Assembly (NCBI GenBank): GCA_011319805.1
Contig: SJRY01000095.1
Span: forward strand, 1 to 64,000
Direction of reading: 5' to 3'
DNA length: 64,000 nucleotides
Source: Macrocybe gigantea
Lineage: Eukaryota > Basidiomycota > Agaricomycetes > Agaricales > Callistosporiaceae
The notes beneath the pieces are model-generated. The model was given only the letters and a program-made list of their open reading frames with translations. It searched no databases and had not been told where the DNA came from. This document shows positions 18,690-60,532 of this stretch, one piece after another; the stretch's first letter is position 1; every line of letters begins with the position of its first letter. Position numbers and translations under genes: made by a program.

Positions 18690-19082
18690 TTTTTTTTTTT
18701 TTTTTTTTTTAAATCAATAATTTATATAGCGGTGCACGGTGGCAGTCCGCTTGTAAATACACCAAGGTACCTACTATAGATACGACTAGTCCGAGGCAAA
18801 CCAGACTGAAGGAAAATACATAGAGGGCTGCACTGCCCTGTTCTCTCGTGCCCGCTCGAACCATATGGCTCGAGCTCACGCATACTCACTCGCTCGAGCA
18901 CTGTCCCCCAGCCCCAAAGGGCCGGCTGTGGTCAATTCCACGTAAAAGGTCCAAAAGGACCTATAACAATGCTGTTGCAGAGTTTGCGATTCGCATACCG
19001 CTTGGTCAGTGCTTTGGTCACTGACCCAACTGTTTTAAGATTGTCCAGGTTGCCCTGGACGATCTCCGCTACAGAACGGCAG

Positions 19083-22000
19083 TCACCTGCTGCCTGGATC
19101 CGGAATAAAAGCACCTGCAGCCTTATTAGATGTCAGGTACTTAATGAACCAGTGACGCATAAAGGTGTCAAACTGGCGTTCGGTTGGCCTGTGCCAGTTA
19201 CGGCACTGAGTCATGACATGGACGGAGTCCTCAGCCCCTCGTCCGCAAGAGCATAAATCGCTCTCGACAAAATTAAACCATGCCCGATACGCATTGATCG
19301 GAGCATGGCCGCATGCAAGACGTGAGCAGTGAGCATAAAGCTCATTATCTGTCACTAACTTCATGAAGCCCATTCTCTTCCGAGAGGGGCATTCATAGGA
19401 ATTTGGCTTTCCTGCTTCGTGAAAACGAAAAGTGGAAGCACCAATATATTTCTTGTTCCCAGAATTCTGGAACCAAGTGCTATGCATATCATCGTCTGCC
19501 TCCCTTCGAAGGCCATCGGTGGTATAAAGGGGATGAAGCCCCAGAGGAACGTTCAGGCTTCGAGCGAACTCGTGAGCCTCGACTTGTATTGCCCACTTCC
19601 ATTTGGAAGGGACATGCCAGAATTCAATCCGGCGCTGCTCGGACTCTGAGAGCCAAGCTTTCAATGATCTACAAAGTGCAATAGAATGCGACTGCACAGA
19701 GTGGGGATTGCAGTCAATGATGCAATTAATCGCATTCATCGAATCCAGAAAGCACACGATGGAGTCAACTCCATCTTGTGTGATAGCCTTTTGGATTGCC
19801 ATTCGCAATCCAATAAGCTCGGCATCATCGCTCGTTGATTTGCCAACAGGCTGACGAATTTCGAAAACCAGCCTGCCCTCGCGATAAACACGCGAAGCTG
19901 ACACAGACTGCTTAAATGGCACTTCTGCTTTCGCAGGCACGGAGCCATCACTACTCACATAAGAGCAATTATGCTGGGTCAAACACTGGGTAAGTGTTTG
20001 ATCCAGCGATGCGCGATAAGCCTTGACCGAGTCCTCGTCTCGGCCAAGTAACTTATGAATCTCAAAGCGACTGTCAAACTCATTGACAAGCCGCCTGCCT
20101 GGGTTATTTGCATCTGCAAAATAATCCGTGGTTAAAAAGAGTGGTGGTTTCAGATCCACCAAATCCTTGAGTGGGGACTTAAGCGCAGAACGCTGTCTGT
20201 CAGACAAAGAAGCAAGATTTCTCACTTTAGATGGGTCGCCCCCAGATGAGGCGGGCGTACTAATTGACCTGAGAGCATGCCTCAGATTGGAATTGGCGAG
20301 GCGGGCAGAGGACCCGACCTTCAGCCTTTGGATGAACCCGCCGATGGGTTCGACGCAGGCCATTGTCTCAGCCGCACCCTCGGGAGTAGTGCGAAACTGT
20401 CCATTGATCCAGATGCAAGCTTTACGCTGCATCTGGCGTAGTTGTTTCAACAGTGCGACATTACGCATGCCATTGAAGTTCCATAATAAACAGCCGTACG
20501 TTGCGATGGGACGCGCGCACGACAAGTAGAGAATGCGTTTCTGCTGAGGGGATAAGCCCCGAACAGAATTGCCCAACATCTGAAAGGCTCTGGCAGTAGT
20601 CAAGGCCTTCGTAGCATAGAATCGAACATGCTCCTTAAAAGAGAGGCGCGCGTCCAAAAAGAAACCAAGGTATCGCCAGACATCCTTGGGTCGAAGCGGG
20701 GTATTGCCCGTAAATGGAGCAAAGCCCAAGTCAATAGATGGACGAGGGTCCATACTATTGCGCGAAAAGTGCTGTAGTTCAGTCTTGTTGTGTTCTACAA
20801 CAAGGCCGAAGTCAGTAAGAGGTTATGCACAGAGGCATAAGCCCTCTGCAGTTTCGGAACATTGTCCGATGTGGATCTGGACTGAGCGATGATCAGTCCG
20901 TCATCGATGAATGACATGATTACTGGCATATCACCAGCTTTCTGGTAAAGTTTCAGTACCGGCGCCAAGTAAAGCGCTGACAATACTGGGGAGAGTGCAG
21001 AGCCTTGACCAACTCCCACGTCGGCCTCGAACTCTGAGAGATGGCACTACGCCAGGCATAAGAAGTTTTGTGCCCGACGAGGTATGATTCGAAGAACTTT
21101 GACACCTGTGGTGCAAAGCCTCCGTGTTGAAGAATCTTCACCAACATACGATGGTTGAGTGAAGGAAAATACTGAGTGACATCGAAAGCAATGACACTCG
21201 TTTTAAATCCCTTAGACCACCCTTGACGGATAATATGGGTAAGGAAGACCCCAGCATCCTCAGTTGAGTTCTGACGGATGCCGCCGAACTGCTTCGGATC
21301 GAAGACAGCAAATTTCGTCGCTTCGTACTGCATACGTCGCGCTAGCATCTTCTCGACGAGCTTGCCGAGGGTATTCAAAAGCACAATCGGACGAAAGGCT
21401 TTCGGGGTATCATATGCAGGTTTGCCAGGTTTCGGAATGATAACCGACAAACTCTGCTTGAAGCAAGAGGGCCAATGCCCCAGATCTAAACATGCATTTG
21501 CAATGTTCAAGATGAATGCAGCTATGTGAGGAAATTTCACCAGCTGTTTGATGTGGCTCCAAGACAGATGGTCTGGTCCTGGTGCAGACATATTGCTACA
21601 GGGCTCTAAGGACTCTCGGAGCTCGGCAGCAGAGAACGGGACCCAGTCCCGTACTGGATGCACTTCAAGATCATTGAGGCGATCCAAATTAACTGTGCGA
21701 TCAGACGCAGCATTATAAGACTTATCAAGCGCATTCCAAAGCGCTTCGATAGAATTACAAGGCTGTCCCTGGAACGAGATAGCTTCGTAGTCAGGTAGGG
21801 GTCTCTGCTTTGTCCATGCAGCTAAATCCCATGGACGACGAGACTTTTCTGCAACCTCCCTGATCCGTTGATCAAAGAAGGCGCGCTTAGCATCTTTGAC
21901 AGCTCGCCGCCAGATGCGATGATCTCTTTCAGATCGGGTTTGTCTGAAAGTATCAAGAGTCTCAGAGCAGTGTTGGTTCCACCAACCCTTGCTCCGTTTT

Positions 22001-22989
22001 GAGAGCTTGCATTCCCTAGAATGGAGATTCCAAGCTCGATCAATGGCCTTTGATAGTGTCGACAAGACGCTCTCGAGGTCGTTATTAGTCTCGATAGGGA
22101 CAATGTCCATTCCGAGAAGATCACCAGCAATGTCGGATATAAACTCCGGTATGCTGTCCTTACTTAACGTTCATCGCTGGACGGATAGGTCTAGCAGAGG
22201 AACATCCAATACAAGTGACAATGGGACATGGTCCGATGTCAGCTTGAGCGCATCAATCATGCGAGGATGGCAATCCCCACTATCAATGGGGATGAACATC
22301 AAGTCAATAACCGAGGGCCGAAGCTCGGGGTTATGTGAAATGAAAGTCAGCCCAGGATTGCTAGGTTCCGACCATTCCAGACTGAGATCGAGAGCTGCAT
22401 TACACAGCATCTCCCCTCGAGACCACTGCGAATTATGAACTCTATCCCAGAGTTCATAATGACAATTGAAATCCCCTCCGAGATAAACTAAGTTGGGGAA
22501 GTCGGGGCGCTCAGCACAATCATGCAAAAGACGAATCGCGCTAGCATCTACATCAGAGTAGGCGTTAGCGAGAAAGAGTGGCTCGCCAGGGGTGGCGAAG
22601 CTAACAATCATAAGATCGCGACTATCAACTAGGTCACGACGAAGGGATGGATGCAGGCGACGAAGCCTGTTATGTACATAGGCCATAACCTGAGGAGGGT
22701 CCTCGAGAGATGAACGGCGAACGATACAGGTCCAATCTGGATGAGTGGGACCACCGATTACTGCCTCGCCCTCAACATTGAGGGCAGACGGAGCGTGTCT
22801 TATGAGATTCCAAGCAGGTTCTTGGAAAAACAGAATATCATAATCCCTCCCGAGAGTAGAGAGGAGCATGTCCATGTGTACATATTTTCTATTTACATTC
22901 TGAGAGAAAATACGAAGAGATGAAATCAATGAGCGTCCCCTTGAACCAGGGACCACAGCTGAGGCTGCACTACCTGAGGAGACACTCAT
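19083..22989 (-). pseudogene. LINE B ORF2: endonuclease, RT, RNase H, Cys/His domain
   Basis: About 1300 codons. The APE-type endonuclease is at the N terminus (FSQNVNRKYVH, FFQEPAW, GGDFNCHYELWDR, TSDHVPLSL). The RT is central (IIPKPGKPAYDTPKAFRPI, FDVTQYFPSLNHRML, GVGQGSALSPVLS and the catalytic FIDD box near 20910). RNase H follows (SSDGSVPAKAEV, DDAELIGLRMAIQ, CFLDSMNAIN). The C-terminal CX1CX7HX4C motif (CSCGRGAEDSVHVMTQC) is last. The endonuclease nicks target DNA and the RT copies the RNA there. A TGA after VQR at 22171, a frame break near 20960 and one near 20755 disable it. ATG at 22989 overlaps the ORF1 stop. Confidence 0.93.
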
Positions 22990-24847
22990 GATGCGTCGGC
23001 CTCCGCATTACGCTGCGGGGAGGCATTAGGATAAATGCTACCTGATCGTTTGCGATCACGTACCAGCTTATAATGTTCCTTGATCCAATCTGGATCAAAG
23101 CGATTTTTCCAGAAGGGACACTTCCGGTCGTCAGTGGAGTGGTCTCGGCCACAGCTGAGACACTTAGGAGGATGAGGGCAGGGCTGGCCCGCCGGAGTAG
23201 CCTCACGAGGAGGGTTAGCCTTGGGTCGAGCTTTGCAGCAAGACGCCAGGGTGCGATGGTGTTCTTTCTGTGAGATTCCCCACAGATCGGGCAGCGAAGA
23301 GATTGCTGGTTGCACTTCAATGCAGAGTGCCCCCAGCGCCAGCAGCATTCGCAAAGAGGAACTCCCGGCGAAGAGAGAGCGGCCTTGAATCGGCAACGCC
23401 AATTCCTGACCATAACTGTGCAATTGTCCAGAGCCTTTACGTTCTGGCCAGTTGACGTGTCTTTGATATTGAACCAGACGGTTGCAGTATCGGAATTCTT
23501 GGAGTTGCGCATGACGCGCGGTACCCCAACGAGAGTAATGAGATCCGAGAAGGAAGAGTCTCGGAGAATTCGTAAGCCTGCCAGGCAGTGATAATGCTAC
23601 CATTGGCATTGAAATAGGGAACGTCGAGCAGTTTCAAATAAGAAACACTCGTCGTGATTGTGAGCTCAACAGTAGATTCTGCCGGAGCACAGTGGAGAGC
23701 GGCCTCACGCAAAATGCTGAGGTCTTTCGGAGAAGCCACCCTCGTCATCAAGCAAGAGAACGAGGAGGCGGAATGATCCTGGATAGATTCGCATCGAATC
23801 CAGGACTTACCAGTGGTCAATGCCCTATTAAGGGCATTAAGGAGAGCTCCAGCGGCAACGGAATCGTTGTCAGCCGGAAAAGAGTAACTGACCTGGACGT
23901 TACGATGGGACGGTCCGTGAGAGGTGGACTTCGCCTTCTTCTTAGGCGGTCCTGATGACTCCCCGGTTGCTTCCTTTTGCAAGGAAACAATCTTCTCAGC
24001 AGGGAGGTGTGGAAATGTTTTTGCCAGAGCTACGATAGCTTCGGTGGGAGTATTGGCCAGTTGGGCCAAGGCTTGCACATAAGAGCGCTTGCCAGAAGAT
24101 GGGCGAGTAGCCCTATTGACCGGGGGGGCGGTCCACGTCCAGGAGTTCGGGAACGAGATTGCACGCGAGGGGGTAGAGGAGGGCGGTTAGGGTTCCGAGC
24201 CGGCCTCGGAGGGGGAGCGCCCTGATTCGAACGAGAGTCCTCCGGTCGCACAGTACCGGAAGGAGAGTGGTGAGTGGCAGGGTCGGCAAAGCGGGTCGAC
24301 TTCCCGTGACTAGGAAGGTGCGCGTTCACAATACTCTGCAAACGTGCTCCGAGTTCATGCTGAGGTCCCTGAAGAGTAGGGACGGAGAACATGTTAACAT
24401 CGCCAGCAGTAGCGACCAAGGCCGCAATACCCTCAGCGATGGCAAACTGGTAGCCCGCCGGAATGGAGACAGAGGCTTTGCCGACCTTAAGGATCCAATC
24501 CTTGAGGGCAGCGAGGGACTCGGTAGCAGCCTTCGCTTCACCGTGAAGGAACCGATGCCCTTCTGGAAAGATCGCTATCCCGATAGAATTGTCATTGTAA
24601 GCTGCCTCAGTGGACAGCATCGACGGAGAAGGGGCACAGTGGGTTCGGCAGACCCGCCAGTGTTAGAAGGGCCAGCGTCGTCGGTGTCCATAAGGCCGTC
24701 GCCGCTTTGAAAGAGGAGGCTCTTGTCTCCAGAGCGAGCTAGGGGTGGAGCAGAGGATCGAGAAGGACCAGAGGAGGTCCGACCTGGGTGGGGATTTAGC
24801 GGTGGAGGTCCACCGCCGCCGACAATGTTGAGCGGATCATTGCTCAT
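22986..24847 (-). pseudogene. LINE B ORF1: RNA-binding Gag-like protein with zinc knuckles
   Basis: ATG at 24847 starts MSNDPLNIVGGGGPPP, a Pro/Gly-rich N terminus. A conserved central part contains LSTEAAYNDNS and FPEGHRFLHGEAKA. A basic Pro/Arg-rich stretch is near 24150. The C-terminal half has three zinc motifs: CECCWRWGHSALKC, CPICGESH... and CLSCGRDHSTDDRKC. Such ORF1 proteins bind LINE RNA in a ribonucleoprotein. Frame breaks near 24610, 24080 and 23510 disable this copy. The stop TGA overlaps the ORF2 start in ATGA. Confidence 0.9.
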
Positions 24848-25047
24848 CGAAGAACTCTAATAAATCGGTGGATTTTCAGCCGATTTTCGCGATTTTAGAA
24901 ACGGGGAGTGCTCAAGGATATAGGTATCCGGATCTGCAACCTGATCGAAGATCGTCCCAAGTGTCGTCACCGTAGAACGAGGAGTGCGATTTGTGAGAGT
25001 TGTTTACAGTTGTTTACAAGTGGGGTTGTGGAAAGAGAAGCGCTGAG

Positions 25048-25230: not shown

Positions 25231-25550
25231 TGTTAGGCTAGATGAATCTCAGAAGGACTCAGGCAGACTAAGTGCGAGAGTGGTCTTGAGATGATAGCAA
25301 AAGGAATATTAAGCCTAGTGCTACTGGTACATCTGGGAGTCCTTATATACATTACAGTACTCGAGCACGGACCATGGGCTGCACAATGCTGTGGACTGCG
25401 GATGAGTAAGACTGGAAGGAGATGACTCAGGATGACTAGGGAAGTGGGATGACTCGATGGCTGCGCGCTGCGCAGCATGACAGGGGAGATAAGTGATGTG
25501 GGAAAGATAAGATAAGAAAATGAATGGTCCTTTGGGCGACGTCTGTAACA
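25231..25550 (-). repeat. Solo LTR family S, copy 3
   Basis: Reverse orientation, 320 bp, with a perfect CACCA duplication (25226-25230 and 25551-25555). Removing it rejoins the LINE A reading around VDLKPPNF and NLVDLK (the fragment MVDLKPPNFL crosses the edge). Confidence 0.92.
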
Positions 25551-35575: not shown

Positions 35576-35968
35576 AGGCACAGGGAACACTCTGGATGAG
35601 CCTTAGAACCTAGAAGTCCTGAGTGAGAACACTAGTAATTGAGTTATGTACAAGTACTTGCCTAGAAGTCCTGAGTGAGAACACTGGGGACTTCAAGGCG
35701 CTCTGTGCTACCTATATATACGTGTAGAAGGCTGTGTGCGCAGCCATAGGCTGCGCATTGCTGCGGGCACAGCTGTAGGCTGTGCACTGCTGCAGACACA
35801 GCCATTTACTACGCATTACTGCGCGCACAGCTTGTGCTGTGCATTGCTGCGGATGCAGCCACAGGCTGCGCATTGCTGCGCACACAGCTATAGGCTGTGT
35901 GCATTGCTAGGCGCATAGCCTGGGTCCTGTCCTATGCACAAGTCCGGACAGGAGGGGCATTTCTAACA
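35576..35968 (-). repeat. Copia-type LTR, reversed copy (393 bp), no target duplication
   Basis: TGTTAAAAC...TTCTAACA on the plus strand, the reverse of the copia 5' LTR at 38107. The flanks are GAGGG and CATGT, so there is no duplication. The left flank is LINE E RT sequence; the right flank is a short piece like the tRNA-headed segment. The inner hairpin-rich repeats lie at about 35730-35920. A joint made by recombination between LTRs is likely. Confidence 0.88.
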
Positions 35969-36188
35969 CATGTGCCAGCTGCTTAGTCACATGACCAAGT
36001 CACCTCCCTTATGAGAACAACTATCACAAGTCCAGATTCGATTGTGCTTGCTAACACTGCTCATGTGATGAGCTGTGAGTTGGGCCGAGGCAGAGCATTA
36101 GCTCGGCCAGGTACATGAAGTGAGAGCCGCTCACCCAATGACTACCCGCGGCTTGACACGAGCCGCAAGCCCAACCACCATGCTGTGT
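35969..36188 (-). repeat. Short piece similar to the tRNA-headed segment, and YR element 3' flank
   Basis: About 60 bp (35971-36031) match 45244-45305 of the 1.2-kb tRNA-headed segment with a few changes (GTGCCAGCTGCTTAGTCACA and on). The next 150 bp show no similarity to it and precede the recombinase stop. They may be the 3' non-coding part of the YR element, in which terminal repeats would be expected; I could not identify such repeats. Confidence 0.5.
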
Positions 36189-38106: not shown

Positions 38107-38510
38107 TGTTAAGAAATGCCCCTCCTGTCCGGACTTGTGCATAGGACAGGACCCAGGCTATGCGCCTAGCAATGCACACAGCCTATGGCTGTGTGCGCAG
38201 CAATGCGCAGCCTGTGGCTGCGTCCGCAGCAATGCACAGCACAAGCTGTGTGTGCAGTAATGCGCAGTAAATGGCTGTGTGCGCAGCAGTGCACAGTCTA
38301 CAGCTGTGCCCGCAGCAATGCGCAGCCTATGGCTGCGCACACAGCCTTCTACACGTATATATAGGTAGTACAGAGCGCCTTGAAGTCCCCAGTGTTCTCA
38401 CTCAGGACTTCTAGGCAAGTACTTGTACATAACTCAATTACTAGTGTTCTCACTCAGGACTTCTAGGTTCTAAGGCTCGTCCCGAGTGTTCCCTGTGCCT
38501 AGTTTTAACA
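38107..38510 (+). repeat. Copia 5' LTR (404 bp) with hairpin repeats
   Basis: TGTTAAGAAATG...AGTTTTAACA. A TATATATAG box at 38356-38364 can drive transcription, with the R-U5 part after it. Between about 38165 and 38345 lie five or six imperfect units of about 30-36 bp built around CAATGCGCAGCC and its near complement GGCTGCGC, so each unit can fold on itself. Confidence 0.92.
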
Positions 38511-42237: not shown

Positions 42238-42633
42238 TTTTTTTTTTTTTTTTTTTTTTAATTCAACAATTTATATAGCGGTGCATGGTGGCAGTCCGCT
42301 TGTAAATACACCAAGGTACCTACTATAAATTCGACTAGTCCGAGGCAAACCAGACTGAAGGAAGATACATAGAGGGCTGCACTGCCCTGTTCTCTCATGC
42401 CCGCGCTCGAGCTATGGGACTCGAGCTCATGCATACTCACTCACTCGAGCACTGTCCCCCAACCCCAGAGGGCCGGCTGTGGTCAATTCCACGTAAAAGG
42501 TCCAAAAGGACCTATAACAATGCTGTTGCAGAGTTTGCGATTCGCATACCGCTTGGTCAGTGCTTCGGTCACTGACCCAACTGTTTTAAGATTGTCCAGG
42601 TTGCCCTGGACGATCTCCGCTACAGAGCGGCAG

Positions 42634-44268
42634 TCACCCGCCACCTGGATCCGGAATGAAAGCACCTGCAGCCTTATTAGATGTCAGGTACTTAATGAAC
42701 CAGTGATGCACAAAGGCGTCAAACTGGCATTCGGTTGGTCTGTGCCAGTTACGGCACTGAGTCATGACGTGGACGGAGTCCTCAGCCCCTCGTCCGCAAG
42801 AGCATAAATCGCGCTCGACAAAATTAAACCGTGCCCGATACGCATTGATCGGAGCATGGCCGCATGCAAGACGTGAGCAGCGAGCATAAAGCTCATTATC
42901 TGTCACTAACTTCATGAAGCCCATTCTCTTCCGAGAGGGGCATTCATAGGAATTTGGCTTTCCTGCTTCGTGAAAACGAAAAGTGGAAGCACCAATATAT
43001 TTCTTGTTCCCAGAATTCTGGAACCAAGTGCTATGCATATCATCGTCTGCCTCCCTTCGAAGGCCATCGGTGGTATAAAGGGGATGAAGCCCCAGAGGAA
43101 TGTTCAGGCTTCGAGCGAACTCGTGAGCCTCGACTTGTATTGCCCACTTCCATTTGGAAGGGACGTGCCAGAATTCAATCCGGCGCTGCTCGGACTCTGA
43201 GAGCCAAGCTTTCAATGATCTACACAGTGCAATAGAATGCGACTGCACAGAGTGGGGATTGCAATCAATGATGCGATTAATCGCATTCATCGAATCCAGA
43301 AAGCACACGATGGAGTCAACTCCATCTTGTGTGATAGCCTTTTGGATTGCCATTCGCAATCCAATAAGCTCGGCATCATCGCTTGTTGATTTGCCAACAG
43401 GCTGACGAATTTCGAAAACCAGCCTGCCCTCGCGATAAACACGCGAAGCTGACACAGACTGCTTAAATGGCACTTCTGCTTTCGCAGGCACGGAGCCATC
43501 ACTACTCACATAAGACCAATCATGCTGGGTCGAACACTGGGTAAGTGTTTGATCCAGCGATGCGCGATAAGCCTTGACCGAGTCCTCGTCTCGGCCAAGT
43601 AACTTATGAATCTCAAAGCGACTGTCAAACTCATCGACAAGCCGCCTGCCCGGGTTATTTGCATCCGCAAAATAATCCGTGGTTAAAAAGAGTGGTGGTT
43701 TCAGATCCACCAAATCCTTGAGTGGGGACTTAAGCGCAGAACGCTGTCTGTCAGACAAAGAAGCGAGATTTCTCACTTTAGATGGGTCGCCCCCAGACGA
43801 GGCGGGCATACTAATTGACCTGAGAGCATGCCTCAGATTGGAATTGGCGAGGCAGGCAGAGGACCCGACCTTCAGCCTTTGGATGAACCCGCCGATGGGT
43901 TCGATGCAGGCCATTGTCTCAGCCGCACCCTCGGGAGTAGTGCGAAACTGTCCATTGATCCAGATGCAAGCTTTACGCTGCATCTGGCGTAGTTGTTTCA
44001 ACAGTGCAACATTACGCATGCCATTGAAGTTCCATAATAAACAGCTGTACGTTGCGATGGGACGCGCGCACGACAAGTAGAGAATGCGTTTCTGCTGAGG
44101 GGATAAGCCCCGAACAGAATTGCCCAACATCTGAAAGGCTCTGGCAGTAGTCAAGGCCTTCGTAGCATAGAATCAAACATGCTCCTTAAAAGAGAGGCGC
44201 GCGTCCAAAAAGAAACCAAGGTATCGCCAGACATCCTTGGCTCGGAGCGGGGTATTGCCCGTAAATGG
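42634..44268 (-). pseudogene. LINE G: end of RT, RNase H and Cys/His domain of ORF2
   Basis: The open frame 44154-42634 (506 codons) has no stop until the normal end of ORF2. It includes MLGNSVRGLSPQQKRILYLS, RNase H (SSDGSVPAKAEV, DAELIGLRMAIQ, CFLDSMNAIN) and CSCGRGAEDSVHVMTQC. The RT catalytic box lies upstream of the truncation and is missing. The lack of stops over 500 codons suggests a young insertion. Confidence 0.93.
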
Positions 44269-45468
44269 CGAAGTTTAGCCCCCCCTTGCGGGGGAGGCTG
44301 CTACCTAGGTGGGTCTGCCAGATTAAGGCTATTGTCCAGCACTTTCACCCCAGGGCCATCCACGCCCAGGGGAACCCTTAACCTAGGACTTCTTATGTGG
44401 GTCCAGTGTGCATCCGTCGGGCTTACGCCCTCCCTATTTGGTCTGCGGACCCCCCCTTGCCAACAGCCAAGGCCTCCCCAAATTGGGTGTGGACTCAGGG
44501 ATGGTACCGTCTTACTCAGCTGCGGTCTGCCGGATTAAGGCTTTTTGTCCGACACTTGCACCCCAAGGCCATCCACGCCAAGGGGAACCGTTTAAGCCTG
44601 CCAAGTAGGTCGGCATGGACTTTCACCTACACACTGGGGTCCCAGAGTCCCACGGAACCCAGGAGTTCGCACTTCGGATTCAACTTAAGCGGCAACCTGG
44701 GTGTATTATCCCAGGGCCACCGACAGAGGAGTTAGGTCTCTCGAGCCAAGGACTGGAGACTGTCCAGCCTTGCTACGGCCCAGCGGTGTCTGGGGCGCGA
44801 CCCCCAGTCCTGCCTTCCCGTCCTCTGGCAGATGGTTCGCTGATGCCCCTTAGGGCGCGGATCCCCATCTGTCCAAGGTCTCTGTCTTGCCATGTGCCTG
44901 CCAGACTGGCCTCCGATATCACAGCAAGGTCCATGGTCCTCCCATGACAGGTTCCCACAGGGGAAGCCCTTAGCTGAACGGGTCTGGATCTACTTCCGCC
45001 AAAGCGTACTGCGCCATGACTAACCTCCGTGGACCCCTACTTCAGGCAGCTCACACAGTACCGGGTGCCCTGTTGGCTCAAACGCCATCGGGTGGTTATC
45101 AGCCCAATTCCCGGTATAATCCCTTATCCTTTCGGCCCCTACACTTTTAGATCGGGGATCACGTGCTTGCACGTGAGTTAGGGTCATGTGACACTTGACC
45201 CACATAGTGGGGTAAGTCACATGTGTGACGCATAACCCAGCTTACGTCACGTGCCAGCTGCTTAGTCACATGACCAAGTCACCTCCCTCGTGGGAACAAC
45301 TGTCACAGGGTCGTGATACTTCCTGCCCACGTCACGTGGAACCAGCTTCGGACACTTCCGAATGCAAACCTGAAGATGCTACCTCCAGGACTAGAACCTG
45401 CGGCTTCGTGGCTTGCCACAGCCACAGGACTACCTGACTCGCGTTTACCGCTATGCCAACCAGCCCTT
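44269..45468 (-). repeat. 1.2-kb tRNA-headed non-coding segment, copy 1
   Basis: 1200 bp, sense on the minus strand, nearly identical to 49599-50800. It starts AAGGGCTGGTTGGCATAGCG and ends GGGGGGGCTAAACTTCG. The head has an A-box-like TGGCATAGCGG (45448-45458) and a B-box-like GGTTCTAGTCC (45388-45398) with a T-stem CAGG/CCTG, as in a tRNA or tRNA-derived SINE. No conserved protein frame is evident. The sense strand has no run of four T. It could be a long SINE-like RNA or another structured Pol III RNA; its cellular role is unknown. Confidence 0.8.
45388..45458 (-). promoter_or_regulatory. Probable Pol III internal promoter (A and B boxes), copy 1
   Basis: TGGCATAGCGG and GGTTCTAGTCC lie 49 nt apart on the minus strand, close to the first base of the segment. 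This fits the tRNA-type internal promoter (consensus TRGYNNANNNG and GGTTCGANTCC, one mismatch in the B box). Confidence 0.65.
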
Positions 45469-49583: not shown

Positions 49584-49598
49584 GACAGCAACATTCTT
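49584..49598. repeat. 15-bp target-site duplication of insertion F, left copy
   Basis: GACAGCAACATTCTT at 49584-49598 and again at 57009-57023 after the poly(A) tail. The perfect match brackets the tRNA-headed segment and LINE F as one insertion. Confidence 0.95.
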
Positions 49599-50800
49599 AA
49601 GGGCTGGTTGGCATAGCGGTAAACGCGAGTCAGGTAGTCCTGTGGCTGTGGCAAGCCACGAAGCCGCAGGTTCTAGTCCTGGAGGTAGCATCTTCAGGTT
49701 TGCATTCGGAAGTGTCCAGAGCTGGTTCCACGTGACGCGGGCAGGAAGTATCATGACCCTGTGACAGTTGTTCCCACGAGGGAGGTGACTTGGTCATGTG
49801 ACTAAGCAGCTGGCACGTGACGTAAGCTGGGTTATGCGTCACACATATGACTTACCCCACTATGTGGGTCAAGTGTCACATGACCCTAACTCACGTGCAA
49901 GCACATGATCCCCGATCTAAAAGTGTAGGGGCTGAAAGGATAAGGGATTATACCGGGAATTGGGCTGATAACCACCCGATGGCGTTTGAGCCAACAGGGC
50001 ATCCGGTACCGTGTGAGCTGCCTGAAGTAGGGGTCCACGGAGGTTAGTCATGGCGCAGTACGCTTTGGCGGAAGTAGATCCAGACCCGTTCAGCTAAGGG
50101 CTTCCCCTGTGGGAACCTGTCATGGGAGGACCATGGACCTTGCTGTGATATCGGAGGCCAGTCTGGCAGGCACATGGCAAGACAGAGACCTTGGACAGAT
50201 GGGGATCCGCGCCCTAAGGGGCATCAGCGAACCATCTGCCAGAGGACGGGAAGGCAGGACTGGGGGTCGCGCCCCAGACACCGCTGGGCCGTAGCAAGGC
50301 TGGACAGTCTCCAGTCCTTGGCTCGAGAGACCTAACTCCTCTGTCGGTGGCCCTGGGATAATACACCCAGGTTGCCGCTTAAGTTGAATCCGAAGTGCGA
50401 ACTCCTGGGTTCCGTGGGACTCTGGGGACCCCAGTGTGTAGGTGAAAGTCCATGCCGACCTACTTGGCAGGCTTAAATGGTTCCCCTTGGCGTGGATGGC
50501 CTTGGGGTGCAAGTGTCGGACAAAAAGCCTTAATCCGGCAGACCACAGCTGAGTAAGACGGTACCATCCCTGAGTCCACACCCAATTTGGGGAGGCCTTG
50601 GCTGTTGGCAAGGGGGGGTCCGCAGACCAAATAGGGAGGGCGTAAGCCCGACGGATGCACACTGGACCCACATAAGGAGTCCTAGGTTAAGGGTTCCCCT
50701 GGGCATGGATGGCCCTGGGGTGAAAGTGCTGGACATTAGCCTTAATCCAGCAGACCCACCTAGGTAGCAGCCTCCTCCGCAAGGGGGGGGCTAAACTTCG
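49599..50800 (+). repeat. 1.2-kb tRNA-headed non-coding segment, copy 2
   Basis: 1202 bp with the same start and end as copy 1. The A box is at 49609-49619 and the B box at 49669-49679. The part after the head is GC-rich and likely structured. Two related 70-bp units lie near the 3' end (about 50477-50547 and 50690-50760), sharing GGTTCCCCT.GG and GGATGGCC.TGGGGTG. There is no TTTT in the sense strand. The tRNA-like head lacks a matching 3' acceptor strand, so it is not a functional tRNA. Confidence 0.82.
49609..49679 (+). promoter_or_regulatory. Probable Pol III internal promoter (A and B boxes), copy 2
   Basis: TGGCATAGCGG (49609-49619) and GGTTCTAGTCC (49669-49679), unchanged from copy 1. 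The first base of the segment lies 10 nt upstream of the A box, as expected for tRNA-type Pol III initiation. Confidence 0.65.
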
Positions 50801-50852
50801 CTTAAAATCGCGAAAATCGGCTGAAAATCCACCGATTTATTAGAGTTTTTCA

Positions 50853-52709
50853 ATGAGCGACGATCCGCTCAACATTGTTGGTGGTGGTGGGCCTCCACCG
50901 CTAAATCCGCACCCTGGGCGGACCCCTCAGGCCCCTCTCGACCCCCTGCTCCTTCCCCCTCGGGGGACAGGAGCCTTCTCTTCCAAAGCGGCGACGGTCT
51001 AATGGATACCGACGACGCTGGCCCCTCGAATCGGACTGGGTCTACCGAACCCCCATTCCTCCATCTCCGTTGATGCTGTCCACAGAGGCAGCTTATAACG
51101 ACAATTCTATCAGTATTGCGATCTTTCCCGAAGGGCATCAGTTCCTTCACGGTGAAGCGAAGGCCACCACCAAATCCCTCGCCGCCCTTAAGTATTGGAT
51201 CCTCAAGGTCGGCAAAGCATCTGTCTCCATCCCGGCGGGCTACCAATATGCCATCGCTGAGGGTATCGCGGCCTTGGTCGCTACTGCTGGCGATGTTAAC
51301 ATGTTCTCCGTCCCTACTCTTCAGGGACCTCAGCATGAACTCGGAGCGCGCTTACAGAGTATTGTGAATGCGCACCTTCCCTCGCGCGGGAAATCAACTC
51401 GCTTTGCCGATCCCGCCACTCATCACCCCCCTCTGGTACAGTGCGACCGGAGGACTCACGTTCGAATCAGGGCGCCCCGCCTCCGAGACCGGCTCAGAAC
51501 CCAAACCGCCCTCCTCCACCCCCTCGCGCGCGATCTCGTTCCCGGACTCCTGGACGTGGACCGCCTCCTCCGGTCAATAGGGCTACTCGCCCATCTTCCG
51601 GTAAGCGCTCCTATGCGCAAGCCCTGGCCCAACCGGCCAACACTCCTGCCGAGGCTATTGTAGCCCTGGCAAAAACATTCCCACACCTCCCCGCAGAGAA
51701 GATTGTCTCCTTGCAAAAGGAAGCAACCGGGGAGCCGTCTGGACCACCTAAGAAGAAGGCAAAGTCCACTTCTCATGGACCGTCCCGTCGTAACGTCCGG
51801 GTCAGTTACTCTTTTCCGGCTGACAATGACTCTGTTGCCGCCGGAGCTCTCCTTAATGCCCTTAATAGGGCATTGACCACTGGTAAGTCCTGGATTCGAT
51901 GCGAATCTATCCAGGATCATTCCGCCTCCTCGTTCTCTTGCTTGATGACGAGGGTGGCTTCTCCGAAGGACCTCAGCATTTTGCGCGAGGCCGCTCTCCG
52001 CTGTGCTCCGGCAGGATCTACTGTCGAGCTTGCAATCCCGACGAGCGTTTCTTATTTGAAACTGCTCGACGTTCCCTATTTCAATGCCGATGGTAGTATT
52101 ATCACTGCCCGGCAGGCTTACGAGATTCTCCGAGACTCTTCCTTCTCGGATCTCATTACTCTCGTTGGGGTACTGCGTGTCATGCGCAACTCCAAGAATT
52201 CCGATACTGCAACCGTCTGGTTCAACATCGAAGACACGTCAACTGGCCAGAACATAAAGGCTCTGGACAATTGTACAGTTATGGTCAGGAATTGGCGTTG
52301 CCGATTCAAGGCCGCTCTCTCTTCGCCGGGAGTTCCTCTTTGTGAACACTGCTGGCGCTGGGGGCACTCTGCGTTGAAGTGCAACCAGCAATCTCTCCGC
52401 TGTCCGATCTGTGGGGAATCTCACAGAAAGGAACACCATCGCACCCTGGCGTCTTGCTGCAAGGCTCGACCCAAGGCTAACCCTCCTCGCGAGGCTACTC
52501 TGGCGGGCCAGCCCTGCCCTCATCCTCCTAAGTGTCTCAGCTGCAGCCGAGACCACTCCACCGATGACCGGAAGTGTCCCTTCTGGAAAAATCGCTTTGA
52601 TCCAGATTGGATCAAGGAACACTATAAGCTGGTACGTGATCGCAAACAATCAGGTAGCAATCATCCTAATGCCTCCCTGCAGCGTAATGCGGAGGCCGAC
52701 GCATCATGA
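50853..52709 (+). pseudogene. LINE F ORF1
   Basis: ATG 50853 gives MSDDPLNIVGGGGPPPLNPH. After frame breaks near 50915, 51050 and 51420 the last 422 codons (51441-52709) are open. They hold the Pro/Arg-rich part, AEAIVALAKTFPHLPAEKIV, the conserved core and the three zinc motifs (CEHCWRWGHSALKC, CPICGESH, CLSCSRDHSTDDRKC). The product would coat LINE RNA. The stop is TGA in ATGA, shared with the ORF2 start at 52706. Confidence 0.9.
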
Positions 52710-55700
52710 GTGTCTCCTCGGGTAGCACAGCCTCGGCTGTGGTCCCCGGTTCAAGGGGACGCTCATTGATCTCTTCTTTTCATATTTTCTCTCAGAATGT
52801 AAATAGAAAATATGTACATATGGACATGCTCCTCTCTACTCTTGGAGAGGATTATGATATTTTGTTTTTCCAAGAGCCCGCTTGGAATCTCATAAGACAT
52901 GCCCCATCTGCCCACAATGTTGAGGGCGAGGCAGTAATCGGTGGTCCCACCCATCCGGATTGGACCTGCATCGTTCGCCGATCATCGCTCGAGGACCCTC
53001 CTCGAGTCATGGCCTATGTACATAATAGGCTTCGTCGCCTACGTCCATCCCTTCGTCATGACCTAGTTGATAGCCACGATCTTATGATTATCAGCTTCGC
53101 CACCCTGGCGAGCCACTCTTTCTCGCTAATGCCTACTCTGATGTAGATGCTAGCGCGATTCGTCTTTTGCATGATTGTGCTGAGCGCCCCGATTTCCCCA
53201 ACTTAGTTTATCTCGGAGGGGATTTCAATTGTCATTATGAACTCTGGGATAGAGTTCATAATTCGCAGCGGTCTCGAGGGGAGATGCTGTGTAATGCAGC
53301 TCTTGATCTCAGTCTGGAATGGTCAGAACCTAGCAACCCTGGGCCGACATTCATTTCACATAACCCTGAGCTTCGGCCCTCGGTTATTGACTTGATGTTC
53401 ATCCCCATTGATAGTGGGGATTGCCATCCTCGCATGATTGATGCGCTCAAGTTGACATTGGACCATGTCCCATTGTCACTTGTATTGGATGTTCCTCTGC
53501 TGGACCTATCTGTCCAGCGACGAACGTTAAGTAAGGACAGCATGCCAGAGTTTATATCCGATATTGCCGGTGATCTTCTCGGAATGGACATTGTCCCTAT
53601 CGAGACTAATAACAACCTCGAGAGCGTCTTGTCGATACTATCAAAGGCCATTGATCGAGCTTGGAATCTCCATTCTAAGGAATGCAAGCTCTCAAAATGG
53701 AGCAAGGGTTGGTGGAACCAACACTGCTCTGAGACTCTTGATACTTTCAGACAAACCCGGTCTGAAAGAGATCATCGCATCTGGCGGCGAGCTGTCAAAG
53801 ATGCTAAGCGCGCCTTCTTTGATCAATGGATCAGGGAGGTTGCAGAAAAGTCTCGTCGTCCATGGGATTTAGCTGCATGGACAAAGCAGAGACCCCTACC
53901 TGATTACGAAGCTATCTCGTTCCAGGGACAGCCTTGTAATTCTATCGAAGCGCTTTGGAATGCGCTTGATAAGTCTTATAATGCTGCGTCTGATCGCACA
54001 GTTAATTTGGATCGCCTCAACGATCTTGAAGCGCATCCAGTATGAGACTGGGTCCCGTTCTCTGCTACCGAGCTCCGAGAGTCCTTAGAGCCCTGCAGCA
54101 ATACGTCGGCACCAGGACCAGACCATCTGTCTTGGAACCACATCAAACAGCTGGTGAAATTTCCTCACATAGCTGCATTTATCTTGAACATTGCAAATGC
54201 GTGTCTAGATTTGGGGCACTGGCCCTCTTACTTCAAGCAGAGCTTGTCGGTTATCATTCCGAAACCTGGCAAACCTGCATACGATACCCCGAAAGCCTTT
54301 CGTCCGATTGTGCTTTTGAATACCCTCGGCAAGCTCGTCGAGAAGATGCTGGCGCGACGTATGCAGTACGAAGCGACCAAATTTGCTGTCTTCGATCCGA
54401 AGCAGTTCGGCGGCATCCGGCAGAACTCAACTGAGGATGCTGGGGTCTTCCTTACCCATATTATCCGTCAAGGGTGGTCTAAGGGATTCAAAACGAGTGT
54501 CATCGCTTTCGATGTCGCTCAGTATTTTCCTTCACTCAACCATCGTATGTTGGTGAAGATTCTTCAACACGGAGGCTTTGCACCACAGGTGTCAAAGTTC
54601 TTTGAATCATATCTCGTTGGGCGCAAAACTTCCTATGCCTGGCGTAGTGCCATTTCTCCAGAGTTCGATGCCGACGTGGGAGTTGGTCAAGGCTCTGCAC
54701 TCTCCCCAGTATTGTCAGTGCTTTACTTGGCACCGGTACTGAAACTTTATCAGAAAGCTGGTGATATGCCAGTAATCATGTCATTCGTCGATGACGGACT
54801 GATCATCGCTCAGTCCAAATCCACATCGGACAATGTTCCGAAACTGCAGAGGGCTTATGCCTCTGTGCATAACCTCTTCACCGACTTCGGTCTTGTTGTA
54901 GAACACAACAAGACTGAACTACAGCACTTTTCACGCAATAGTATGGACCCTCGTCCATCTATTGACTTGGGTTTTGTTCCATTCACGGGCAACACCCCGC
55001 TTCGACCCAAGGATGTCTGGCGATACCTTGGTTTCTTTTTGGACGCGCGCCTTTCTTTCAAGGAGCATGTTCGATTCTACGCTATGAAGGCCTTGACTAC
55101 CGCCAGGGCCTTCCAAATGTTGGGCAATTCTGTTCGGGGCTTATCCCCTCAACAGAAACGCATTCTCTACTTGTCGTGCGCGCGTCCCATCGCAACGTAC
55201 GGCTGTTTATTGTGGAACTTCAATGGCATGCGTAATGTCGCACTGTTGAAACAACTACGCCAAATGCAGCGCAAAGCATGCATTTGGATTAATGGACAGT
55301 TTCGCACCACTCCTGAGGGTGCAGCTGAGACAATGGCCTGCGTCGAACCTATCGGCGCGTTCATTAAAAGACTGAAAGTTGGCTCGTCTGCCCGCTTAGC
55401 TAACTCCAATCTGAGGCATGCCCTCAGATCCATTAGTACGCCCGCCTCAGTTGGGGGTGACCCATCTAAAGTGAGAAATCTCGCTTCTTTGTCAGACAGA
55501 CAGCGTGCTACGCTTAAGTCCCCACTCAAGGATTTGGTGGATCTGAAACCACCACTCTTTCTAACCACGGATTATTTTGCTGATGCAAATAACCCGGGCA
55601 GGCGGCTTGTTGATGTGTTTGGCAGTCGCTTTGAGATCCGTAAGTTACTTGGCCGAGACGAGGACTCGGTCAAGGCTTACCGCACATCGCTAGATCAAAC

Positions 55701-56613
55701 ACTTTCCCAGTGCTCGATCCAGCATGATTGCTCTTATGTGAGTAGTGATGGCTCCGTGCCTGCGAAAGCAGAAGTGCCACTTAAGCAGTCTGTGTCAGCT
55801 TCGCGTGTTTATCGCGAGGGCAGGCTGATCTCTGAGATTCGTCAGCCAGTTGGTAAATCAACGAGCGACGATGCTGAGCTCATTGGGTTGCGAATCGCAA
55901 TCCAAAAGGCTATCGCACAAGACGGAGTTAATTCTGTCGTGTGCTTTTTGGATTCGATGAATGCAATTAATCACATTATCGATTGCAACCCTCACTCTGT
56001 GCAGTCGCATTCTATTGCACTTTGTGCATCACTTAAAGCTTGGCTCTCTGAGTCCGAGCAGCGCCGGATTGAATTCTGGCACGTCCCTTCCAAATGGAAG
56101 TGGGCAATACAAGTCGAGGCTCACGAGCTTGCCCGGAGCCTGGATGTTCCCCTGGGGCATCGTCCCCTTTATACCACCGATGGCCTTCGAAAGGAGGCTG
56201 ATGATGATATGCATAGCACTTGGTTCCAGAATTCTGGGAACAAGAAATACATTGGTGCTTCCACATTTCGTTTTCACGAAGCAGGAAAGCCAAATTCCTA
56301 TGAACGCCCCTCTCGGAAGAGAATGGGCTTCATGAAGTTAGTGACAGATAATGAGCTTTACGCTCGCTGCTCACGTCTTGCATGCGGCCACGCTCTGATC
56401 AATGCGTATTGGGCACGGTTTAATTTCGTTGAGAGCGACTTATGCTCTTGTGGACGAGGGCCGGAAGACTCCGTCCATGTCATGACTCAGTGCTGCAACT
56501 GGCACAGGCCAACTGAACGCCAGTTTGACGCATTTGTGCGTCACTGGTTTATCAAGTACCTTGCATCCAACAAGGCGGCAGGAGCTTTTATTCCGGATCC
56601 AGGTGGCGGGTGA
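52706..56613 (+). pseudogene. LINE F ORF2, the best-preserved copy
   Basis: About 1300 codons with only two defects: a frameshift near 53103 in the endonuclease and a TGA at 54043-54045 where other copies have Arg. The endonuclease motifs are FSQNVNRKYVH, FFQEPAW, GGDFNCHYELWDR and LDHVPLSL (the usual S of SDH is L). The RT has FDVAQYFPSLNHRML, GVGQGSALSPVLS and FVDD near 54795. RNase H has SSDGS, DAELIGL and CFLDSMNAIN. The C-terminal CSCGRGPEDSVHVMTQC is intact. 819 codons from 54154 are continuous. It starts at ATG 52706, overlapping the ORF1 stop. Confidence 0.95.
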
Positions 56614-57008
56614 CTGCCGCTCTGTAGCGGAGATCACCCAGGGCAACCTAGGCAATCTTTAGGCAGCAGGACCAGCGACCGAAGCGCTGATCGAGCATTA
56701 TGCGAACCGCAAACTTTGCGACAGCATCCGTTATAGGTCCTTTTGGACCTTTTACGTGGAATTGACCACAACCGGCCCCTCGGGGCTGGGGGACGGTGCT
56801 CAAGCAAGCGAGTATGCACGAGCTCGGGTCTTTTAGCTCGAGCCGGGGCACGAGAGAGCAGGGCATTGTAGCCCTCTATGTATTTTCCTTCAGTCTGGTT
56901 TGGATCGGACTCGTCGTATTTATAGTAGGTACCTGTGTGTATTTACAAGCGGACTGCCACCGTGCACCGCTATATAAATTGTTGATTCAAAAAAAAAAAA
57001 AAAAAAAA
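56614..57008 (+). other. LINE F 3' UTR and poly(A) tail
   Basis: The 3' UTR is conserved in all copies (TTATAGGTCCTTTTGGACCT, a palindrome-like block near 56730, and the end TATATAAATTGTTGATT) and is followed by about 20 A. Presence in 5'-truncated copies fits recognition of the 3' end by the LINE RT. Confidence 0.85.
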
Positions 57009-57318
57009 GACAGCAACATTCTTCCGACCATGAAGATCTGGGCGGCATGGTCACGTCCCGGGAGGTCTCGGAAGCGACCTCAACGATGCGCCGGACCTCA
57101 AGCATGGATGATCTCTGCCGGTTGAGCCTCTTGCCAGGTGTGGTGTCTGACAACCCATGACATGTTCGCGTTTTGGGACAACGATAGGAAAGCGGTGACA
57201 GCGGCATCACTGGGGGCTATGACGTTGACGAGCTTGCTGTGTTCGCGGCTGCCGCGGATGGGCAGTGGGTTGACAAGCCTCGCGTGATGGCTGAGCGAGG
57301 AGTACGAGCAGCTCGCGG
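57009..57318 (+). pseudogene. Remnant of a disrupted host-like exon region
   Basis: After the second target duplication copy, the plus frame gives QQHSSDHEDLGGMVTSREV and TMRRTSSMDDLCRLSLL, in frame with the sequence before insertion F (SYVQASRNSFDDGASSRTA) except for one TGA (49583-49585) that could have been CGA. A second open stretch, HDMFAFWDNDRKAVTAASLG, follows after a possible acceptor near 57133. No family was recognised. The solo LTR at 57319 cuts it again. Confidence 0.35.
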
Positions 57319-58446
57319 TGATGAGCGCTCCGCGCCGCTGACCGCCGATAAGTCCTAATTTGGTAATCCCGCCCCCGCATTCGAAATCATACCACTACTC
57401 GGCCCCCTCAGCATGATACCGCAGCCCAGCCGCTGACTTCTCGTTCGAGTACTCGGGATGTCGACAACTCCGTGAGGCTTCCATTCCAGGTCCGGACACT
57501 TCGCCAAACGCATCGCACCCGTACATTCCGGACCTTCTGCGCTTCCTATACCGCCCAATACAGTCAGGCAGTCTTATTCCTATATGCCTCCCCCGATTTC
57601 CCAGATCCCAATATGGCAAGACTACTACCATTTTCGATATCGCACCGCCTCACACCTTCCCGCGTTCCCGACACTGCCTCGCCGCAGTACATTCGAAACA
57701 AGGGATTTCGAGCGCGCTACCGTTTCATCCACTCTCATTTCGAAATTCATGACTCATATTTCACTGATACATTCTACGTTCCTTAGATTATTTTCACGTT
57801 CCATTCTACGATGCGTGGCACCGGTTTCGGGATGTTCTTTTACCTACTGTTTCACCTTTTATGTTCAGATTTCGAATGGACTTACATCTCCCCGGCGTTT
57901 CAGCCACTAAACGACCCTTTCGAAATCATACGATACGTTCTCTCATTCGGTTTCGACTCCGCCGGTTATTCCGATACTCGAAATCTTCTCATCTATAAAA
58001 CCCATGTACTTGGCATTTGTAAAAACATAGAAAAAGTTACCGTCTCAGTCCTTCAGCAGTCTCGCAGTCTACGACTCGTGTGGAGTCCTTGTGTTATCCG
58101 ATCTCAAAGTGTCACGCTCGCGTGGAGCCACCGTACTCAGTCTCGAAATCAGTGTCTCTGGCTTCGCGTGGAAGTCATTATCATCGAAACCCTTCCGAAA
58201 CCCTCACTGAAGCCCTCGATATCGCGCGGGAATTCAGCTAAGTCTAACAGCCTTGTTTCGAAAACCCCGAAATCCGCTCGAAACCATCCATATTCACTTC
58301 GTTCCATTCCTCCCCTTTCACGCTACAGTCCCTCGGGTTACTCTGTGACTTGAACAGCTCGTAGTTTATACAGCCTCGGATAGGGACTGACGCTTCCTTC
58401 ATTCCACCTTGTTGGTTTGTAGGTTAGTGCTACCCGATAGTTATCA
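57319..58446 (+). repeat. Solo LTR of Gyp2 (1128 bp)
   Basis: TGATGAGCGC...TAGTTATCA, full length and in sense orientation. The flanks are GCGG at 57315-57318 and 58447-58450, a 4-bp duplication. A TATAAAA box at 57994-58000 marks the likely promoter. It lacks the 214-bp deletion of the Gyp2 5' LTR. Solo LTRs arise by recombination between the two LTRs of a full element. Confidence 0.95.
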
Positions 58447-60532
58447 GCGGTCGAGCATTACAGTGCCGAACACGGCGGACTTGAATGGTGGTGGCAAGCA
58501 GGGGGAGTCGAGCTTGGAGTTTGTGTTCGAGGAGGACCCCCGGAGGGAGGTGCGCACGCCAGGGCAGGCATGCTGATGGATCCGATACAGGCGTTCAAGC
58601 CCTCTGGGACGCTTCCGGTGGATGTAGAAGCTGAGGTAGAGGTGGTGTGCTTAGGGTCGTCGTTGCCTATGGATCCGGATCATGGTGGAACTGGTAAGAA
58701 CTGTTCATAACAAGGAAATGCTTGTGCTGACGTCTCGCATGATGGACGAAGAACTGTTCAGTCATTGAGTCCGTGACAACGCCACCAGTGGTGCAGACAG
58801 ACCACCTGTCATTGATGGCAGGCTAGATATCAGAGGGTTACTATAGCAGGTCCGAGGAGCACGCTAGTGCGCATGAGCACGAAAGCGAGTCCACCATCAT
58901 GCAGCCACTCATCGCGTCGTCCAGCCAGCCAGCCCTCTGCCGACCTGATACGGAGCAGCTACATGACGGCGTCCACGGCATCGTGCATGTACAACCTGTC
59001 CGACTTCCCTCCGCCTCCGTGGCACGCAGGGCACATGTCACTCTTGAGCTCATACTTTGAGGAGGTCCTGTCACAGCACGATTTGCGTGTTTCAATGATG
59101 GTGATTGTGAACACAGGTTCACGTTTGGTGATGAGGTTGATGAGATGACCGCTGTGTTCTCGAGTATGTCTAATGCACGATATACACTTTGTTCATAGCA
59201 ATGCGCCTCTCCTTTATCCTTTCCTTCTTTTTTTTTCCAACGTTCATTTGAGCTATCAGATTAATTCTTTACTTTACTCTACTTGTTGCCACTAATAGTC
59301 ATCGGGAAGGCATGTGGGTCATTTCTAGGTGCAGTATCTGTTATTTTCAAAGGAAATGCTTTTGTCCGCAGGATGCAAGGCATGCTGAATACTTGTTCTT
59401 TGCGTGTCAGATAGTATCTTGCAACGCAGGATACTTGTAGAGATGTCCAGTCCACAACTATCGACCTCCACATACATAAGTTCCATGGCTGTGAGGCCTG
59501 CCACCCTACATGATCCTGACCGAGAAGACGCCCCCAATCAGCCTCTTCTCATTTGTCCATATATTTCGAGTACTGTGTACCTCGTTCATTGTATCCAGCA
59601 CTTGGCCTACGAATGCCTGCACTAATAAATGGCTTACCTTGGGCAGGCACTGCATGAAGATAGATGGCTGGAAATCTCTATGGAGGCCGCCATGCACCAT
59701 GAGTGTAGAGAGTGGCACTTCTAAAAGTGTCCTGTAGCAGTGCATTGAATTCGGTGGATGAAGCATGTTCACAAGATGCTTGGTTGAGAACTGTTGCTGC
59801 CCTTTCGCATCTTATAATCGAGGTGGAGCCAATCGAGGTCGCAGCAATGAATGAAAGCAACAAGAATCCAAGGCAAAAATTGTCCACGGTAGAAACAGAG
59901 GTGAGGTTGAGACCTCACAACTTGTACTCCAATTAGTTAATACGCATAGCGCGATGTGCGTGTTGCATCGCTGACAGCCTGTGTGGGCAGAAACGGGCAG
60001 AGAAGCCACGCATTTCTTTATTTCAACATGAACGCTCTCTGGAGGTGATATGATTTGCTTCAGCCATCGAAGTGTGACGCGTTGCAGATGCTGAACAGCG
60101 GCTATATCACCTCATGGATTTTGGCTGCGCACTCACTGCGGGTGGAGACAGAGAAGCAGCATTTGATTAGCTCACTTGGTCAGCACTATTTGGATGTTCA
60201 CTGTCATGCTTCCTTGGGTAAGTGAGTAGCACGTGCGACACATAGTCTATAGAAATCATCACGCCGGCAGTGCATGAGTTGCGGTGGAAGTCCATGACAT
60301 TTGTAGTCACATCATGCAAGACTAAGCAATGTAATGATTACAAAAAACGTGTTGCCAATATAGTAGTGCCTTTTCAATCGAATGCCTGATCCTCTCCATC
60401 GCAAGCCATACAGCCTGTCTGACATTAATAAGTCCCTCCTCATATCTTGCCCATGAAAGTCACAAGTGGTTGGATGTCACGATAGCGAACCAAGTTTGGT
60501 TGAAGTCAGGAATATTGCGGACTACTGGTGGG
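58447..60532. other. Unassigned, probably host-derived region
   Basis: No transposon similarity was seen. Directly after the LTR the plus frame gives LNGGGKQGESSLEFVFEED and REVRTPGQA up to TGA near 58575. Possible splice donors occur at 58697 and elsewhere. Minus-strand frames of 60-90 codons exist at 59887-59678 and 59772-59506. Nothing could be tied to a family, and the region may be gene remnants that continue those at 49450-49583 and 57024-57318. Confidence 0.35.

Follow-up and report, generated by a model that had tools for sequence, protein, structure and literature searches.

The window analyzed here is a 64,000-nucleotide stretch of DNA from the basidiomycete Macrocybe gigantea (positions 1 to 64,000 of contig SJRY01000095.1, forward strand, assembly GCA_011319805.1). 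At positions 49584..57023 it carries a segment of about 1.2 kb followed by a long interspersed nuclear element (LINE). An original prediction had read this pair as one insertion flanked by a target site duplication, and as a chimera resembling the MINE elements of the fungus Magnaporthe. The features of this chimera, of a second chimera in the window, and of the LINE copy that serves as our reference (LX) are as follows.

49584..49598, plus strand: 5′ target site duplication GACAGCAACATTCTT, exact
49599..50800, plus strand: segment, long subfamily, full length (1202 nt), without evident coding (copies in the genome; Rfam and Pfam null)
50801..57008, plus strand: LINE part of the chimera, from which the first 148 nt of the LINE are absent; poly-A end
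53167..54045, plus strand: open reading frame (ORF) with an endonuclease domain (PF14529, Exo_endo_phos_2, 1.8e-08)
54154..56613, plus strand: ORF with a reverse transcriptase domain (PF00078, RVT_1, 2.5e-22)
57009..57023, plus strand: 3′ target site duplication GACAGCAACATTCTT, exact
42238..44268, minus strand: truncated LINE fused to the second segment copy, joint GCT^CCATTT (caret, joint)
44269..45468, minus strand: second segment copy, 98.4% identical to the first over 1203 columns
18691..25047, minus strand: LINE copy with a complete 5′ end, reference LX, 6357 nt

The duplication-flanked pair was confirmed. Two plus-strand occurrences of GACAGCAACATTCTT, at 49584 and 57009, are the only ones in the window, and the LINE poly-A run directly precedes the second. 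The segment passes directly into LINE sequence at 50801, and no duplication lies at this joint. On that strand AAGGGCTGG likewise has a single occurrence, at 49599, as does CTAAACTTCG, at 50791. The earlier observation that the same segment is joined to another LINE copy at another LINE position also holds: the second segment copy meets its LINE at the counterpart of base 54979 in the first chimera. A target duplication was looked for around this second chimera and none was found. For the LX copy an exact 10-nt duplication is present, with the element beginning at LX base 1, and another LINE copy, at L023, has an exact 12-nt duplication and begins at LX base 3. A protein search with the LINE gave 469 relatives; among the 120 listed, the named organisms are mushrooms such as Candolleomyces, Cyclocybe, Agaricus, and Tricholoma, which makes a basidiomycete host probable.

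Segment copies and their partners in the genome

The genome searched comprises 41.2 Mb in 333 contigs. When the best 40 of 149 candidates from a DNA search were scored, 31 were near full-length long copies of the segment. Both ends are present in 30 of these, as expected from the prediction of many copies with the same start and end, and one copy begins at base 34. A rearranged segment family is also represented among the candidates. Pattern searches located 87 segment 3′ ends and 107 segment 5′ ends genome-wide, and the reversed controls gave 2 and 6, respectively. The recurrence of the segment is far beyond chance. Pairing of the ends, for which all but 7 of the 107 5′ ends were listed, reveals two subfamilies, a long one of ∼1200 bases and a short one of ∼930–950 bases. 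Among the listed 5′ ends 31 are unpaired; the 13 that were read are mostly joined to a LINE or to a short interspersed nuclear element (SINE), and the unpaired ends at L102, L103, L104, and L108 are broken or unresolved.

Contigs C143 and C151 share joints and LINE ends, and C151 is apparently an alternative copy of part of C143. Counts over contigs are therefore partly non-independent. At L148:1-372 a LINE and an inverted short-subfamily segment abut head to head by their 5′ ends.

The sequence that follows each of the 87 segment 3′ ends was read, and a partner was assigned by BLAST when a match started within 12 bases of the joint. A LINE in sense orientation follows in 74 cases, 71 of them placed by BLAST and three divergent ones (L065, L067, and L096) recognized by partial match or by eye. 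The 71 placed joints fall at 61 LINE positions, in line with the predicted fusion at many positions. A sense SINE follows in 10 cases, at nine SINE positions, bringing the total with a sense LINE or SINE partner to 84 of 87. Two outcomes named in advance as contrary to the chimera reading, segments lying mostly alone or fused at one fixed LINE position, were checked and not seen: none of the 87 3′ ends belongs to a solo copy, and the 61 positions are accompanied by SINE partners. L105 and L107, considered as solo SINEs, were rejected because both are segment–SINE chimeras.

None of the placed joints lies at LINE base 1, and the lowest is at LINE base 10. LINE base 4691 is a joint in four places (one long-subfamily copy and three other copies) and so appears to be a hot spot, where two of the three other copies may be alternative copies. 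At L013:8687-9383 a short-subfamily copy without its 5′ part ends in CTTCG and is directly followed by antisense LINE poly-T.

One duplication around the pair

If the segment and the LINE were inserted together, one target duplication should surround both. In nine of the 22 long chimeras, 11–18 bases lying immediately before the segment are repeated directly behind the LINE poly-A, compared with one of 420 usable random control points. The forecast of one 10–15-bp duplication per pair thus held for these nine, at slightly wider lengths, and no duplication was recognized in the other 13. The segment starts with AAGGG, AGGG, or GGG, with at most three other bases between the duplication and this start. 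The RNA was therefore copied to its 5′ end, which agrees with the copying proposed originally.

L010 and L023 have a common 5′ flank of 800 bases that is 96% identical, and their LINE joints differ (5597 versus 4589). These are apparently independent insertions at the same site within a repeat.

A base rule upstream of the joints

The bases that precede a joint in the intact LINE or SINE are not present in the chimera. They were read from segment-free copies at the same LINE or SINE point, with up to four references kept for each joint. Ninety joints were extracted (none from L082 or L101), and 80 were counted. Left out were L013w, which is antisense, and L060, L061, L067, L074, L077, L026, L040, L044, and L024b, for which no reference reaches the joint base. 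For several of the 80 the best-scoring reference ends one or two bases short, and the best reference that reaches the joint was used instead. For 80 of the 90 joints the match with a segment-free copy reaches the base directly following the segment; therefore, no added bases are needed to account for these.

The absent upstream bases follow a rule, which is new here. In the long subfamily, 26 of 29 joints read G-Y-Y^ (GCC in 13), whereas this motif makes up 6.5% in the LINE. The remaining joints have G at −3 in 40 of 51 cases. Removal of repeats leaves 70 distinct joints: G stands at −3 in 60 of them, compared with counts of 9 to 24 at 29 other offsets, and at −1 in none. When any close reference is accepted, G occupies −3 in 73 of the 80 joints. 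SINE joints behave similarly, with G at −3 in six of the seven (out of 10) that have a reference. The base at +1 in the long subfamily is T in 12, C in 13, A in two, and G in two, and thus lacks the A/U preference of the Magnaporthe GCC^A/U joints.

Ordinary LINE 5′ ends were used as a control. Of 10 such ends, four came from 27 segment-free LINE 3′ ends and five and one, respectively, from sets of 20 stretches. G is at −3 in two and G-Y-Y in none, and comparison with the 70 distinct joints by Fisher's test gives 5e-5 for G at −3 and 4e-4 for G-Y-Y. Thirteen further LINE boundaries, neither at an edge nor full-length, lack a duplication, were read by hand, may be inexact, and were kept outside the control; three of them have G at −3.

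Assignment of the segment's final G to the LINE was considered and rejected, because this base shows no link to the LINE base at −3 and its changes resemble CG decay. Nine joints inspected informally for reading frame gave no pattern.

Architecture of the segment and the resident SINE

The segment in the window contains the following features.

49609..49619, plus strand: A-box-like TGGCATAGCGG at segment base 11, exact to TRGYNNARNNG
49670..49678, plus strand: B-box-like GTTCTAGTC at segment base 72, one mismatch to GWTCRANNC
50175..50239, plus strand: central domain common to the segment and the resident SINE, 80.6% over 67 columns, E 2e-11
50476..50544, plus strand: unit 1 of a 69-nt internal repeat, 84% identical to unit 2
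50689..50756, plus strand: unit 2 of the 69-nt internal repeat, 84% identical to unit 1
50770..50800, plus strand: 3′ terminal hairpin GCCTCCTCCGCAAGGGGGGGGC plus tail TAAACTTCG, in both the long and short subfamilies; the SINE is similar by eye

The head of the segment was scored against the A- and B-box consensus sequences TRGYNNARNNG and GWTCRANNC. ARAGORN called no tRNA genes in the window. Rfam returned only matches below the curated cut-offs for the segment, the SINE, and the short subfamily, and for the window chimera it returned one match, far below cut-off, in the LINE part. No Pfam match above the curated cut-off was obtained for three segment ORFs (182 of 183, 66, and 61 residues), the single match scoring 17 bits against its cut-off of 26.3.

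The resident SINE is ∼1.15 kb long, has a different tRNA-like head, and is represented by 50 5′ ends. Its 3′ end consists of a hairpin and CTAAACTTCG, followed by a fixed joint to the last ∼93 bases of the LINE, found at 41 places. The segment has no fixed 3′ tail of its own, and differing LINE or SINE positions come next. The likeness between the segment and SINE 3′ ends rests on their common order, a hairpin and then CTAAACTTCG at the tail border. With its tRNA-like boxes, its 3′ hairpin and CTAAACTTCG, and a SINE whose like 3′ end precedes a fixed LINE tail, the segment looks like a tail-less SINE-type RNA with a long and a short subfamily. The resident SINE itself may be an old chimera.

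Other repeats in the window

A repeat of 320 bases that starts with TGTTA and ends with TAACA is present three times, at 8573-8892, 16486-16805, and 25231-25550. ACTCT lies on either side of the first, and the three look like solo long terminal repeats. Three copies of a ∼1.13-kb repeat (4752-5881, 15305-16216, and 57319-58450) are 91–96% identical, and one of them is internally deleted. Inverted 404-base copies at 35566-35968 and 38107-38510 are 97% identical and contain 29/57-base tandem repeats. Beside the tandem-repeat unit, 60 bases at 35969-36028 are 92% identical, inverted, to segment bases 162-221, and represent a stray piece of the segment family.

Formation of the chimeras

The best explanation for these patterns is chimeric retroposition of the segment RNA, to which, whichever the joining route, we assign a probability of about 0.85. 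The segment RNA would be a 1.2-kb non-coding transcript with a tRNA-like head, probably made by RNA polymerase III (Pol III) and related to the resident SINE. It would lack the 3′ tail, derived from the LINE, on which SINEs depend, and would spread as the 5′ part of chimeras. Its 3′ end (hairpin plus CUAAACUUCG) would be joined to LINE or SINE RNA that had already been deprived of its 5′ part, at a site marked by G at −3, no G at −1, and, in the long subfamily, usually G-Y-Y^. Starting at the LINE tail, the LINE machinery would then copy the joined template through to the segment 5′ end, and the product would be inserted with one target duplication. We infer both the transcription by Pol III, from sequence features, and the step at which joining occurs.

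Several observations weigh against this explanation or against parts of it. No duplication was recognized in 13 of the 22 long chimeras; in 11 none was seen, and at L010 and L023 the LINE 3′ end is beyond reach. Three of the 87 places depart from a sense LINE or SINE partner; at L079 and at the copy at the start of L025, which have one common old joint, only a short LINE-like stretch follows, and the third place is the L013 copy with its antisense LINE. At L100:1077-1401 (oriented 101-425) some 322 segment bases pass straight into LINE sequence, a departure from the usual 3′ end that may reflect either fusion of a shortened RNA or a subsequent deletion. The pair of A and B boxes arises in 6–7% of shuffled sequences. 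TTTT is absent from all 22 long copies, but between one fifth and one quarter of the shuffled versions of the window copy also lack it (P ∼ 0.2); its scarcity was dropped as a sign of Pol III because it is not significant. BLAST relates the segment and SINE 3′ ends with an E of only 0.5, and the fixed joint of the SINE departs from the rule of G at −3. Lastly, the control set of ordinary LINE 5′ ends is small: a duplication is verified for four of the 10, one could instead reflect an internal deletion, and inverted repeats adjoin two.

The original prediction had attributed the chimeras to template switching by the LINE reverse transcriptase. The chimeras themselves fit this, but ligation of RNAs before reverse transcription accounts for the rule at the joints at least as well. 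Both joining routes are listed in PMC13174262. In the jump model, the same chimeras arise when the enzyme leaves an internal LINE position for the 3′ end of the segment RNA. Such a model was proposed for Magnaporthe, with the same site preference and with predicted hairpins at the joints (PMC2104539), and PMC8857657 describes a non-LTR enzyme that jumps between templates in vitro. However, ordinary LINE truncations rarely show the joint motif (2 of 10, in a small control), and thus the motif is not evidently a general stopping site. The work on template jumping reports that the R2 enzyme requires non-templated bases matching the acceptor, that balanced deoxynucleoside triphosphates lead mostly to adenosines, and that chimeras in a human assay were attributed to preligation (PMC8857657). 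In addition, LINE base 1 is never a joint. A jump is a serious contender, but we would bet somewhat against it. We lean slightly toward joining of cleaved RNA before reverse transcription, given a rule that concerns uncopied bases and is absent from ordinary truncations, clean joints, and the lack of a LINE joint at base 1.

A separate question, compatible with chimeric retroposition, is where the segment RNA comes from. A host housekeeping RNA gene that is missing from the assembly, as suggested for the WEIRD RNA of Magnaporthe, would fit the nearly star-like divergence of the long copies, which is consistent with one or a few sources: the median distance is 1.7%, and the alignment of 22 copies has 77 singleton and 59 informative columns, a few of them being LINE bases at the segment edge. 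In contrast, four long copies share three linked sites, which implies more than one source sequence. There are at least two subfamilies, rearranged bodies, and old decayed members, and one block is related to the SINE. Furthermore, no source copy exists among the 87 3′ ends, and none was found in Magnaporthe (PMC2104539). A source locus may be absent from both assemblies, or the chimeras may themselves serve as sources. We therefore consider a host gene an unlikely source. The earlier suggestion that the LINE captures one abundant RNA stands as regards recurrent fusion, but the partner is not arbitrary: it is tRNA-headed and SINE-related, forms at least two subfamilies, and also joins the SINE.

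Two other explanations fare worse. Chance insertion of an independent element beside LINEs, or later recombination or misassembly, might be entertained because many loci are nested repeats and because C143 and C151 appear to represent one region twice. This is very improbable given the same 3′ end at 87 places with a sense LINE or SINE in 84, one duplication around the pair in 9 of 22 chimeras versus 1 of 420 random points, and the base rule at the joint. The notion that the segment is the 5′ untranslated region of a LINE lineage, which the position of the segment before a nearly whole LINE in the window might suggest, is refuted by the spread of joints over 61 LINE positions, by the SINE as partner in 10 places, and by LINE copies in the window that have their own, different 5′ end.

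More tentatively, and with the odds somewhat against it, tail-less retroelements that exist only as 5′ hitchhikers may constitute a class in fungi, in which RNA cleavage and joining at G-Y-Y^ would be conserved between ascomycetes and basidiomycetes, chimeras would act as sources, and WEIRD would be a member rather than the product of a host gene. Because both the internal promoter and the 3′ hairpin signal would be present in every new chimera, each could act as a further source, in which case the hairpin would set the 3′ end of the RNA. A chimera joined near the LINE end could become a SINE, and the resident SINE hints at such an origin.

Comparison with known systems

Ligation of U6 to LINE-1 was reportedly described by Moldovan in 2019. 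Mammalian U6/LINE-1 chimeras, according to PMC13174262, resemble those found here in having a full-length small RNA on the 5′ side, sense orientation, a truncated LINE, and duplications. They differ in that mammalian RNA/LINE-1 chimeras involve host RNAs with their own genes, several of which also insert alone (PMC13174262). The tRNA-like head of the segment recalls tRNA-derived SINEs with a LINE tail, and the resident SINE is built as an ordinary member of that group. In contrast, the segment, with a length of ∼0.9–1.2 kb, lacks a LINE tail of its own.

The closest counterpart is the MINE of Magnaporthe, in which WEIRD RNA is fused to the MGL LINE or to Mg-SINE, with no solo WEIRD found (PMC2104539). 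Both systems have a full-length, non-coding 5′ part of 1.1–1.2 kb with constant ends, and a LINE 3′ part on the same strand that is 5′-truncated at many positions. SINE chimeras, the lack of a solo RNA copy, and one duplication are likewise common to the two. The joints printed there read G-Y-Y^ in 17 of 18 rows (12 distinct strings in all), with no G at −1 (PMC2104539), and a base rule at the joint thus appears to be common to the Magnaporthe and Macrocybe gigantea sequences. The system described here differs in its basidiomycete host and in its two segment subfamilies. The tRNA-like head of the segment may be a further difference, and the genome also has a resident SINE whose similar 3′ end is followed by a fixed LINE tail. 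The original view of a MINE-like chimera in a basidiomycete is upheld by the fixed ends and the sense fusions to truncated LINEs, and this MINE-type system very likely belongs to a second fungal phylum. No other such fungal system was found in the open-access literature.

If this is true, MINE-type hitchhiking is recurrent in fungi and not a one-off of the rice blast fungus. The base rule is sharp and testable, and it bears on whether LINE chimeras arise by RNA ligation or template jumping. Moreover, the co-occurrence in one genome of a tail-less RNA with a related SINE whose LINE tail is fixed is the remnant that would be expected if SINEs were born through such joints.

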